DNA of 37,172 nt, from the NCBI GenBank assembly GCA_003171215.1, contig PMYN01000154.1, forward strand, positions 40,869 through 78,040, in the 5' to 3' direction. The DNA is from Gemmatimonadota bacterium. GTDB taxonomy: Bacteria > Gemmatimonadota > Gemmatimonadetes > Gemmatimonadales > Gemmatimonadaceae. Each line of letters opens with the position of its first letter. Position 1 is the stretch's first letter. The notes under the pieces are model-generated. The model saw only the letters and a list, made by a program, of their open reading frames with translations, was not told where the DNA came from and ran no database searches. Shown in pieces: positions 28,019-32,876 of the stretch. The position numbers and the translations under genes were made by a program.

Positions 28019-28990
28019 TCACACCACCGTCGCCTGTCCCGCGCCGGCCATGCTCGCCTCGAAGCGCCGTATGGCCTCCACCGCGGCCGTGCGCTGCGGG
28101 CGAACGCACAGCATGGGGCGCGAACCGGCGCGCAGCACCTTGTCGGCGACGCTCCCCACGAGCAGACGGGCGATTCCCCTTCCATGCGTCGCAAGCGCGA
28201 CGAGATCCGGATTCGACGCCTCGATGTGCTCGAGAATCCGGCGTATGGGCCCGTTGTGAACCTCCACGGTCGAGGTAACGCTCAACCCCTTACCTCGAAG
28301 ATGCTCGGCGACGGCGTCGAGCTCGTGTTTTGCCTCCTCGGCAAACGCGTCGATGCCGAATCGGTCGATCTCGCGAGCGAGCACCACCTCGGAATCGCCG
28401 ACCCACGGCGGCACGACGACACGGAACAACTCGATGCGCGCGCCGAACGCCTTCGCGAATGACGTGATATCGGGAAGGATCGCTTCCGACATCTCCGACC
28501 CATCGAGCAGCACGAGCATGGTGGATGGCTTCGTCGTCCGCTCCGTCGCCGCAGCCGACATCGCCAGCACAGGCTTCAACGTGTGCCGGATGACGTAGTC
28601 CGTCACGCTCCCGAACCAGTGCGGCGCCCAGCCGCCGGTGCCGTGCGTCGTGCAGACGATGACTTTTGCGTCGCACTCGGCCGCCGCGGCAACGATCTCC
28701 TCACCCGGCTGCCCGATGCGAAACTCCGAATGCACCGTCAGGCCGGAGTCGCCGCGGATCTCCTTCACCCTCGCGTCCAGCCAGGCTCGCTTGGTCATCA
28801 CGACCTCCGCCTCGATTCTCGCGTCGGGAAAGACCAGCGGCGGTGCCTCGACCGTGACGGGCGCCATCGGCGCGTGCACGCGCACGACGTGGAGCGTGCC
28901 GCCCATTCGGCGCACCAACTCCATCGCATGCGGCACAGCGGCATCGGCCAGCGATGAGCCGTCGAGTGGAACCAGAATATTGTTCGACAT
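28019..28990 (-). CDS. Tandem universal stress protein (two UspA domains)
   Basis: A 323-residue protein with two Usp domains: 1-150 (starting NILVPLDGSSLADAAVPHAM) and about 158-310 (STMLVLLDGSEMSEAI). Each carries a nucleotide-binding loop: THGTGGWAPHWFGS in the first and THGRGIARLLVGS in the second, both compatible with the G-2x-G-9x-G(S/T) pattern. Usp proteins help cells survive starvation, heat or oxidative stress; the specific role is unknown. GGAGAAG precedes the ATG. It starts 21 nt after a small lipoprotein gene and is probably co-transcribed with it from the promoter-like motif at 29380-29412. Confidence 0.93.
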   Translation of the reverse strand: MSNNILVPLDGSSLADAAVPHAMELVRRMGGTLHVVRVHAPMAPVTVEAPPLVFPDARIEAEVVMTKRAWLDARVKEIRGDSGLTVHSEFRIGQPGEEIVAAAAECDAKVIVCTTHGTGGWAPHWFGSVTDYVIRHTLKPVLAMSAAATERTTKPSTMLVLLDGSEMSEAILPDITSFAKAFGARIELFRVVVPPWVGDSEVVLAREIDRFGIDAFAEEAKHELDAVAEHLRGKGLSVTSTVEVHNGPIRRILEHIEASNPDLVALATHGRGIARLLVGSVADKVLRAGSRPMLCVRPQRTAAVEAIRRFEASMAGAGQATVV

Positions 28991-29011: not shown

Positions 29012-29329
29012 TTAGCGCCAGCGTCCCTCGATCCAGAACCATCCGTGGTAGTCGTGCGACCACTGTCCCGGCACCCACTCGCCAAAGCCCGGCGCCACCT
29101 CGATCCACCCGCCCGGAATCCACACGTATTCACGAACGCGCCACGCCCAGTGGCCGGGCATCCATGCGTACCCGCGTCCAGGCCCGGCGACGATGATTTC
29201 CCCGTGCGGCGGCGGAGGCGCGATGCCGACGTAGATCACACCCGGGTGCGGCCTGATGTACATCCCGCACGCCGAAGCGAAAGCGAGCAGCGCGACGAAC
29301 ACACCGCGTCGAACCCTCGACCGTGTCAT
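29012..29329 (-). CDS. YxWxxGxW-repeat lipoprotein
   Basis: A 105-residue exported protein. The signal peptide ends in lipobox FASAC (Cys21). Four tryptophan repeats follow: YAWMPGHW (54-61), YVWIPGGW (68-75), GEWVPGQW (83-90) and WFWIEGRW (97-104). Such WxxGxW proteins are common, short and uncharacterised envelope proteins. GAGGAGAG lies just upstream of the ATG. The Usp gene follows 21 nt later, suggesting an envelope-stress link. Confidence 0.85.
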   Translation of the reverse strand: MTRSRVRRGVFVALLAFASACGMYIRPHPGVIYVGIAPPPPHGEIIVAGPGRGYAWMPGHWAWRVREYVWIPGGWIEVAPGFGEWVPGQWSHDYHGWFWIEGRWR

Positions 29330-29379: not shown

Positions 29380-29412
29380 ATGATCCGCGCGCGGAGCTCC
29401 AAAGTCAGTCAG
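29380..29412 (-). promoter_or_regulatory. Promoter-like motif upstream of the lipoprotein-Usp gene pair
   Basis: Read on the minus strand this is CTGACTGACTTT, 15 nt, then GATCAT, ending 50 nt before the lipoprotein ATG. The same 12-mer, spacing and ATCAT occur before hsp20 (31337-31369). The arrangement looks like a -35/-10 pair or a shared activator site. Confidence 0.5.
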
Positions 29413-29477
29413 CGGAACCGCCCGTTCGACGTCGGGAATGCCCTTGCCGACGGCAACGCGAACGACCGACATGGCTT

Positions 29478-30335
29478 CTACGCGAGAATGTGCCGCCCGC
29501 GAAGCCGTTCAGGAGCGTTTGCAGTGAACTCGCCACCGCGCACATCTCCGAGCAGGCGCGACGCAAAGAACGCACTGCAGAGCACCGCCACCGCGACAAT
29601 GGGCACGATGCCCATCGGCGCCGGCAGCCCCCGCGCGCGCATCACGAATGTCATCGCGATGATCGCGAGCCCCATCAGCGTCGCGAACACGAGCACGGGC
29701 ACGGCAAAGAGGAAGCCGAGCGGGCGACGGTTCCAGAGCAGCACGGAGGTCGCGATCGTGCCGGGGAGGAACAGTGCGAGATCGAGCACGTGGATCGGGC
29801 TGACCGGGAATCCGCTTACGGTGACGCTCGCGGGAGTGCTGCCCGCGATCAGCGCGGGAACGATGTCGCCGAGCCAGAGGGCTGCAAAGCCGCAGCCGAA
29901 GATCATCAGGAACACGGCGGCCGCCCTCGTGTGCGCCACGCGCTCGAACATCGCCGGCAGCCTCCGGACGTCCACGCTCGACGCGGCGCCGATCAGCGCG
30001 TACGACGACGATCCGAGCACCGCGACGTACACGAGGAACCACGGCCCGAAGTGCACGAAGAACGCGTAGATCACGTACGAGTAGACCACATAAAGCAGCG
30101 CACCCATGCAGACGAGGCGCGCTCGCGTGAGGCCGAGGTGCGCCTGGATCGCGCTTCCCACCAGGACGGGAAAGACAACCATGAAATTTATCATGTCCTG
30201 CCCCGAGCCCTGCGCCGCCCACGACACCGTTTCCCGTACGTAGGTCGCGCCGCTGAGAACGCCGGCGGCGCTGGCGAGTGCCATCAGCACCGCGGCGATG
30301 AGTGAGAGCACGATCCAGCCGTTCGACATGCGCAT
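29478..30335 (-). CDS. Polytopic membrane protein of unknown function
   Basis: A 285-residue protein with about eight hydrophobic segments and short loops; no signal peptide, enzyme motif or transport signature was recognised. The start at 30335 (MRMSNGW) has AGGGGG 6 nt upstream; longer in-frame starts lack this. An intramembrane-type acidic residue is seen in WLGDIVPAL. The gene is divergent from the small 81-residue protein gene, with 166 bp between them. No function is proposed. Confidence 0.75.
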   Translation of the reverse strand: MRMSNGWIVLSLIAAVLMALASAAGVLSGATYVRETVSWAAQGSGQDMINFMVVFPVLVGSAIQAHLGLTRARLVCMGALLYVVYSYVIYAFFVHFGPWFLVYVAVLGSSSYALIGAASSVDVRRLPAMFERVAHTRAAAVFLMIFGCGFAALWLGDIVPALIAGSTPASVTVSGFPVSPIHVLDLALFLPGTIATSVLLWNRRPLGFLFAVPVLVFATLMGLAIIAMTFVMRARGLPAPMGIVPIVAVAVLCSAFFASRLLGDVRGGEFTANAPERLRGRHILA

Positions 30336-30424
30336 CGGCGTCCCCCTGTTGAACAACGGCCGCGCACTGCGCTCGCGGCTCGACCTCAGCATGCGCGACG
30401 GACAGCCGTCACGCAGTCCGGCGC

Positions 30425-30448
30425 GACACCCTACTCATGTCGGGAAAA
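30425..30448 (+). promoter_or_regulatory. Conserved 24-nt block upstream of the 81-residue protein gene
   Basis: GACACCCTACTC, 3 nt, TC, 2 nt, GAAAA. The same block, identical at 19 of 24 positions, occurs at 33262-33285 before the CsbD gene on the same strand. It ends 53 nt before the start codon at 30502. It could be part of a promoter or a regulator site. Confidence 0.4.
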
Positions 30449-30501
30449 CACCGATGGCGCGGCGAGTGGCGCACCGTGATCGTGTGGAACGGGAGGCACC
30501 C

Positions 30502-30747
30502 ATGTCCATGAAACGCGCGTTGCAGGTCGTTTTCACGATCAGCCTGATCGGAGTCGCATTCTCGGGAACGCTCACCTATCGCGAGCTCACGGGTGCGACG
30601 GCGCAGGTCTGTCCGTCGCCTGGAGCGCCGGGTACGATATTCGGATATCCGGCGTGCGTATACGGTCTCGTGATGTACACGATCCTCGCGATCGTGAGCG
30701 GCATAGGGTTAGTCGCAGAATCGAGGCGGACCAGCGCACACACATAG
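30502..30747 (+). CDS. Small two-helix membrane protein with a conserved-looking Cys pair
   Basis: An 81-residue protein with two membrane helices (about 7-24 and 53-72). The short loop between them holds Cys37 (AQVCPSPG) and Cys52 (GYPACVYGL), well placed to form a disulfide. The ATG at 30502 was chosen because GGGAGG lies 5 nt upstream; a longer reading frame has no such site. The GYPACVYG segment has the look of a family motif, but I cannot name the family. The gene ends at a strong bidirectional terminator shared with hsp20. Confidence 0.75.
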   Translation: MSMKRALQVVFTISLIGVAFSGTLTYRELTGATAQVCPSPGAPGTIFGYPACVYGLVMYTILAIVSGIGLVAESRRTSAHT

Positions 30748-30764
30748 CAGCGACGGGAACGACA

Positions 30765-30805
30765 AAACCGGCGAGCGCATCGAGGTTCGATGCGCTCGCC
30801 GGTTT
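30765..30805. terminator. Bidirectional intrinsic terminator
   Basis: A perfect 19-bp stem: AAACCGGCGAGCGCATCGA at 30765-30783 and its reverse complement at 30787-30805, closed by a 3-nt loop. The A-run on one side and T-run on the other let it act in both directions. It lies between the convergent 81-residue protein gene and hsp20. Confidence 0.92.
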
Positions 30806-30814
30806 CTCGGTTTG

Positions 30815-31309
30815 TCACTTCGCCTTGATCTCGATCTTCTTGGCCATGCTCTTCACTTCCTCGGCTTTCGGGATGTGAATCGTGAGCATGCCATTCGCGA
30901 ACTCGGCGACGATCTTCTCTGCGTTCACCGGCTTCGGGAATGCGAATGAACGGAAGAACGTGCCGAAGCTGCGCTCGTACAGGTGAACGCGGTTCTTGTC
31001 CTTCTCCGCTTTCTTTTCCTCTTCCTTCGATCCCCGAATCGTCAGCGTGTCGTCTTCGCACTCCACGGTGACATCGGCGGGCTTCATGCCCGGCAGCTCG
31101 GCGATGACGACGAATTCCGTCGCGCTCTCCGTGAGCTCGACCGCCGGGAGCCAGCCGACCGGCTCAGCGAAGAAATCGGACGGCTCGACCAGCGCTCGGC
31201 CGAATGATTCCGGGAAGAACTGGCGGAGCCGGTTGCGCATCGTGTCGAACTCGCGCGTCGTGGACGGCTCGAGCAGCGCGGGGAGAAGCGAGATGCGAGT
31301 GGTAGCCAT
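30815..31309 (-). CDS. Small heat shock protein, Hsp20/alpha-crystallin family
   Basis: A 164-residue chaperone. An alpha-crystallin domain spans about 54-148, with VVIAELPGMKPADVTVE and the hallmark NGMLTIHIPK (139-148). The C-terminal IEI (159-161) is the IxI anchor used for oligomer assembly. It holds unfolding proteins during stress. The ATG at 31309 has AGGAGG 5 nt upstream. A promoter-like motif lies 28-60 nt upstream of the ATG. No CIRCE element was seen. The gene ends at the shared terminator. Confidence 0.95.
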   Translation of the reverse strand: MATTRISLLPALLEPSTTREFDTMRNRLRQFFPESFGRALVEPSDFFAEPVGWLPAVELTESATEFVVIAELPGMKPADVTVECEDDTLTIRGSKEEEKKAEKDKNRVHLYERSFGTFFRSFAFPKPVNAEKIVAEFANGMLTIHIPKAEEVKSMAKKIEIKAK

Positions 31310-31336
31310 AAGACCCTCCTGTGATGGTGCGATCGT

Positions 31337-31369
31337 ATGATGCAATGCGGACACGAGAAAGTCAGTCAG
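31337..31369 (-). promoter_or_regulatory. Promoter-like motif upstream of hsp20
   Basis: On the minus strand: CTGACTGACTTT, 15 nt, CATCAT, ending 27 nt before the hsp20 ATG, which leaves room for a short leader. It matches the motif before the lipoprotein-Usp genes in sequence and spacing. Confidence 0.55.
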
Positions 31370-31381
31370 GATTCGGCGCAC

Positions 31382-32259: not shown

Positions 32260-32691
32260 TCAGGGCTTCTTCGTTGAGTCCTTCTTCACGGCGGCCTTCA
32301 CGGCGTGCGTCGTCTTCTTCGCAGCGGTCTTCGTGTCACTCGCCCCTTTTTTCACCGCGTTCTTCGTGTCTTTCGCTCCAGTTACCACCGCGTTCTTCGT
32401 GTCTTTCGCGCCGGTTACCACCGCCTTCTTCGTGTCTTTCGCGCCCGTTACCACCGCGTTTTTCGTGTCCTTCGCCCCGGTCACCACCGCCTTCTTCGTG
32501 TCCTTCGCGCCCGTTACGACCGCCTTCTTCGCGTCTTTCGCCCCGGTCACCACCGCCTTCTTCGTGTTCTTCGCCGCCTTGGTGGTGGCGGTCTTGATCT
32601 TGCCTTTCGTCGTGTCCCTCGTCTCCTGGGCGCCCACCGCGGTCGTCGCGGCGCAAACCAACGCGAGGGCGAGCCAACGCATCCGGATCAT
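32260..32691 (-). CDS. Secreted LEA-like protein with 11-residue tandem repeats
   Basis: A 143-residue exported protein. A signal peptide spans about 1-21 (cut after AVGA). From residue 47 it has six near-identical 11-mers, VVTGAKD(T/A)K(K/N)A, then two degenerate copies. The rest is Lys/Thr/Ala-rich with almost no large hydrophobic residues. The 11-residue period and Thr-Ala-Lys-rich content resemble group 3 LEA desiccation proteins, which form amphipathic helices on drying. GGAGG lies 5 nt before the ATG at 32691. Histone-like or DNA-binding Lys/Ala-rich repeat proteins are an alternative, but the signal peptide argues for the envelope. Confidence 0.75.
   Translation of the reverse strand: MIRMRWLALALVCAATTAVGAQETRDTTKGKIKTATTKAAKNTKKAVVTGAKDAKKAVVTGAKDTKKAVVTGAKDTKNAVVTGAKDTKKAVVTGAKDTKNAVVTGAKDTKNAVKKGASDTKTAAKKTTHAVKAAVKKDSTKKP
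32290..32553 (-). repeat. 33-bp coding tandem repeat, eight units
   Basis: Eight consecutive 33-bp units lie within the LEA-like gene. The first six (32356-32553) encode almost the same 11-mer; the last two are degenerate. Silent differences between the copies at the GTC/GTT and GCC/GCG codons show they are not a sequencing artefact of one unit. Confidence 0.85.
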
Positions 32692-32876
32692 CTGAACCTC
32701 CAGCCATGAAGAAAGCAGCGGCAGCACGCCGAGTGGCGGTGAGCCTGTCAACAGGAATCTGTGAGGAGCACCCCGACTGGCGCCAGAGGAGTTTCCGCGG
32801 TGACCTTCAAGTGAGTGCACCGAGGAGGAACTTCCCTCGGCGTGTCTTCTCCAACCTGCATGTTCAAGGAGCCACC

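Follow-up and report, generated by a model that had tools for sequence, protein, structure and literature searches.

A shared promoter-like element upstream of small heat-shock and universal stress protein genes in a Gemmatimonadota genome

Results

Two copies of the element lie upstream of stress genes

In the window (the whole stretch of Gemmatimonadota DNA analysed, 37,172 nucleotides), the small heat-shock gene hsp20 occupies positions 30815..31309 of the minus strand; its 164-aa product matches Pfam HSP20 (E 3.4e-22), and its ATG at 31309 is preceded by the Shine-Dalgarno sequence AGGAGGG. On the same strand lies a pair of genes, the first of which (29012..29329, ATG at 29329) encodes a small, 105-aa WXXGXW-repeat lipoprotein-like protein (Pfam WXXGXW, E 2.2e-6) and the second (28019..28990) a tandem-domain universal stress protein (Usp), matched by Pfam Usp in two stretches (E 3.2e-44). 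Stress-type genes are clustered around hsp20 between 29012 and 37148; besides the lipoprotein and Usp genes, they encode a VKOR-like protein, a PEMT-like methyltransferase, a PoxB-like pyruvate oxidase and a CsbD-like small protein (assigned by eye). The minus-strand frame at 32260-32694 encodes a low-complexity Lys/Ala-rich protein that has TGAKDTKKAVV repeats and a signal-like N-terminus but matched nothing in Pfam.

The initial annotation had placed a common motif, CTGACTGACTTT-N15-(C/G)ATCAT, on the minus strand at 31337-31369 and 29380-29412, and its coordinates, strand and 15-nt gap all proved exact. The 12-mer CTGACTGACTTT is present as an exact match 5' of hsp20 (31358..31369) and 5' of the lipoprotein-Usp genes (29401..29412); its nucleotides 5-10, CTGACT, form a putative -35 element (4/6 to TTGACA), and it contains a 4-bp direct repeat, CTGACTGACT. 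The putative -10 elements, CATCAT for hsp20 (31337..31342) and GATCAT for the lipoprotein-Usp genes (29380..29385), each lie 17 nt past CTGACT, with 27 nt between CATCAT and the hsp20 ATG and 50 nt between GATCAT and the ATG of the lipoprotein-like gene. No regulator gene lies beside either site.

Outside the motif, the sequences upstream of the two loci could not be aligned convincingly, and a recent duplication of the promoter region was rejected on that ground. An RNA element was also rejected, as the window held no Rfam match. The match would be an artefact if the common string belonged to a coding sequence or a repeat, or if the regions taken as upstream were wrongly assigned; a GTG at 31381 does offer the hsp20 frame a longer version that would take in the motif, but the strong ribosome site 5' of the ATG at 31309, an Hsp20 domain that begins far downstream and the differing flanks make this explanation extremely improbable.

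The motif pair had been described as unlikely to arise by chance, a statement which turned out to be too strong. When 28 upstream regions of 200 bp were simulated, with a look-elsewhere correction within the window, some shared 12-mer appeared in 98% of simulations, and in 10.6% a shared 12-mer was followed, at the same spacing, by a shared 5-mer. This particular 12-mer is A/T-richer and rare; in the 4.14-Mb genome 0.11 exact copies were expected and 2 observed, both in the window. Because such a pair has a 10.6% chance of occurring after the correction, the pair by itself is suggestive of shared control and does not settle it, and the weight is carried by the additional genomic copies.

Near-copies precede two further stress operons

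A search of the genome allowing one mismatch in the 12-mer, with the -10 positions left free, added three sites, at C82, C160 and C126. The C82 copy, CTGACTGACCTT-N15-TAGCGT, begins 110 bp 5' of the ATG of a second tandem Usp gene, itself divergent from a CBS-domain gene; the C160 copy, CTGACTGACTGT-N15-TATACT, lies upstream of an operon encoding YgaP-like, rhodanese and OsmC proteins; and the C126 copy is intragenic. Those on C82 and C160 are correctly oriented for their operons. Exactly 15 nt downstream of the 12-mer, A at -10 position 2 and T at position 6 were found in all four promoter copies, the chance of this A/T combination being ~0.027 per site.

The genome scan proposed with the initial annotation, for enrichment before stress genes, thus placed four of the five matches (at most one mismatch) upstream of stress operons and one within a gene, whereas the reversed motif, used as a control, gave four matches within coding sequence and a fifth where no gene was evident. 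The totals were the same (5 and 5). Assuming about seven Usp loci, the chance that one of three stray matches would land within 200 bp before a Usp locus is ~5e-4; the remaining Usp loci do not carry the box. Since TGAC belongs to the -35 of any housekeeping promoter, matches in promoters are favoured from the outset, which counts against the interpretation of the sites as a stress set.

No wider regulon emerged at two mismatches with the -10 positions fixed, as these matches were mostly intragenic. Among them, the match at a nitronate-monooxygenase-like gene (named by eye; L026) overlaps the start codon, and another, before an HNH gene (L030), was unconvincing.

An ArsR-family gene is transcribed away from the C160 operon, and its likely operator, the near-perfect palindrome GAGTATATCCGAATATACTC (L005, ~1478-1500), fills the spacer between the -35 and -10 elements of the YgaP-rhodanese-OsmC operon. 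This palindrome is likely a self-contained redox or sulfide repressor site; together with the TATACT -10 and the divergent gene, it looks like a repressed promoter overlaid on the same -35/-10 frame.

The layout resembles weak sigma-70-type promoters

Across the four promoters the layout is CTGACT or CTGACC, 17 nt, then CATCAT, GATCAT, TAGCGT or TATACT, with 4/6 matches to TTGACA, 3-5/6 to TATAAT and 7-9/12 in total. The sequence features of a sigma-70-type promoter (a -35-like hexamer, a 16-18 nt spacer and A2/T6 at -10) are there; the match is weak, since a stricter generic promoter scan (9/12) listed no site in the window region. As in promoters read by RpoD/RpoS (group 1-2) sigma factors, a TGAC core at -35, a 17-nt spacer and A/T at -10 positions 2 and 6 are found; unlike them, the present sites begin the -35 hexamer with C where the consensus has T, have weak -10 elements, and share flanking sequence outside the consensus, a CTGA extension on the upstream side and YTT on the downstream side.

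Given this CTGAC(T/C)-17-(-10) layout, an RpoD/RpoS-type sigma factor is the suggested reader. Three non-ECF sigma factors with region 3 are encoded in the genome (C147, C128 and C5), each bearing a TRERxRQ recognition helix; all three scored best against RpoD/RpoS models but stayed below the NCBIfam cut-offs specific to RpoD, RpoS and RpoH.

Several established promoter and operator patterns were sought in the four promoters, and none was present: RpoH (sigma-32; CTTGAA-N12-16-CCCAT or CTTG-N17-19-CYTAT), HrcA/CIRCE (TTAGCACTC-N9-GAGTGCTAA), HspR/HAIR (CTTGAGT-N7-ACTCAAG), EcfG (GGAAY-N15-18-SGTT), SigB (GTTT-N13-17-GGGWA), sigma-54 (YGGCA-N6-8-TTGC), FNR (TTGA-N6-TCAA), CRP (TGTGA-N6-TCACA) and DosR (GGGAC-N4-6-GTCC).

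The element is retained at one Usp promoter in one congener

In 179 genomes of the family, the full pattern was found before a stress gene only in the congener G004, at the orthologue of the C82 Usp gene (protein 93% identical), where the site sits inside an intergenic block whose conservation exceeds that of the coding sequence next to it. The scan of relatives put forward with the initial annotation therefore showed the motif not to be conserved. A looser search of G004 returned seven further two-mismatch matches, not above the reversed control, and the hsp20 and lipoprotein-usp sites were absent among them; elsewhere in the genus and family no box was found before Hsp20 or Usp homologues, including the congener hsp20 and usp orthologues. 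Searching for Hsp20 homologues by name returned a single, distant spirochaete. Two other exact-pattern matches in the family were discarded as stress promoters, one being intragenic (G146) and one lying close 5' of a frame for a Rieske-type iron-sulphur protein (G118). Because relatives lack the box save at the one Usp site, the predicted promoter set is lineage-specific or fast-evolving, or partly coincidental.

Usp orthologues carry other upstream elements. A conserved GTCRGG-type element occurs ~50-150 bp upstream of their starts, exemplified by GTCAGGGAAACCC in congeners (L090-L096), GTCGGGGAATCCCCTCTGGC in Gemmatimonas (L121-L123) and, on the other strand, GTCAGGTGACCTCCC in genus g31 (L098-L107); it was present in 23/52 Usp upstream windows and 28/579 control windows, figures that apply to a pattern picked post hoc and to related genes. 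An ECF-promoter-like GGGAAAC-N18-GGTTATC also precedes Usp orthologues of congeners (L091, L092, L093), and was rejected as a genus-wide regulon, as 18 genus genomes held four matches, three at these same Usp genes and one elsewhere.

Alternatively, the 12-mer might be bound by a transcription factor, either an activator or a repressor, as an operator overlapping the -35 element. The box is longer than a -35 hexamer, inverted repeats lie ~15-50 bp 5' of it at hsp20, lipoprotein and usp, and GTCRGG-type elements recur upstream of Usp orthologues across the family, all of which would fit such a protein. Those inverted repeats, however, differ in sequence, the FNR, CRP and DosR boxes are missing, and the 12-mer, spanning roughly -39 to -28, coincides with the -35 element and is not centred at -41.5. 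Its 4-bp direct repeat would moreover suit a dimeric helix-turn-helix protein poorly, which renders a dimeric activator bound there less plausible, and we regard an operator as improbable overall.

Discussion

From the sequence, spacing and genomic distribution of the sites, and the sigma factors present in the genome, we infer promoter activity, co-regulation, a reader and an inducing condition as follows. The two window motifs would be the core promoters of hsp20 and the lipoprotein-usp operon, of the sigma-70 family, with CTGACT (nucleotides 5-10 of the 12-mer) at -35, a 17-nt spacer and SATCAT at -10. The extended -35 box CTGACTGACYTT would mark a small group of stress promoters particular to this lineage, comprising hsp20, lipoprotein-usp, the second tandem usp and YgaP-rhodanese-OsmC; given the near-copies before the last two, the four operons are probably switched on together under a shared condition, and the most likely reader would be one of the three RpoD/RpoS-like sigma factors. 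We consider this interpretation about evenly balanced between right and wrong.

Most of the remaining probability goes to ordinary housekeeping promoters whose -35 regions look alike by chance and which share no regulation, a quite possible explanation, if short of an even chance. CTGACT-17-SATCAT is a plain, weak sigma-70 layout, the look-elsewhere probability in the window is ~0.11, relatives show no conservation and the motif count equals that of the control; against this, the four promoter copies are functionally coherent (Hsp20, Usp, Usp, OsmC/rhodanese) and their identity extends well past the TGAC core. The earlier proposal that one stress sigma factor or activator controls both window loci is accordingly upheld in part: the near-copies before the second Usp gene and the YgaP-rhodanese-OsmC operon, and the sigma-70 fit, support shared control, but they do not distinguish a dedicated sigma factor or activator from the housekeeping sigma factor, and conservation is confined to one Usp promoter.

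As to the condition under which a set of core stress promoters would act, no evidence pointed specifically to heat. Bradyrhizobium jointly induces Usp, CBS and Hsp20 proteins when oxygen is low (PMC6515984), and in Gemmatimonas phototrophica the small group of low-oxygen-induced genes includes a Usp as well as cbb3 oxidase, hemN and nitronate monooxygenase (PMC11406998; the text searched does not mention a promoter). By analogy with these responses in other organisms, low oxygen is no less likely a trigger than heat. The comparison is one of gene content: the Bradyrhizobium microoxia set and the mycobacterial DosR regulon combine the same kinds of genes, Usp, Hsp20 and CBS-domain (here the CBS gene divergent from the C82 Usp), whereas the four promoters described here have no FNR/FixK-like (TTGA-N6-TCAA) or DosR-like palindrome. 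Likewise, a Usp takes part in the low-oxygen response of G. phototrophica, presumably a member of the same family, yet the Usp regions of its presumed genome (G044) lack the 12-mer box.

Literature searches turned up neither mapped promoters nor stress regulons for Gemmatimonadota. It is a tentative suggestion, and on balance an unlikely one, that the box CTGACTGACYTT defines an undescribed class of Gemmatimonadaceae stress promoter, read by a group 2 sigma factor and serving Hsp20, Usp and OsmC/rhodanese operons. Gemmatimonadota are a widespread soil phylum, and four promoters with a defined box would offer a concrete handle on how its members coordinate small heat-shock and universal stress proteins.
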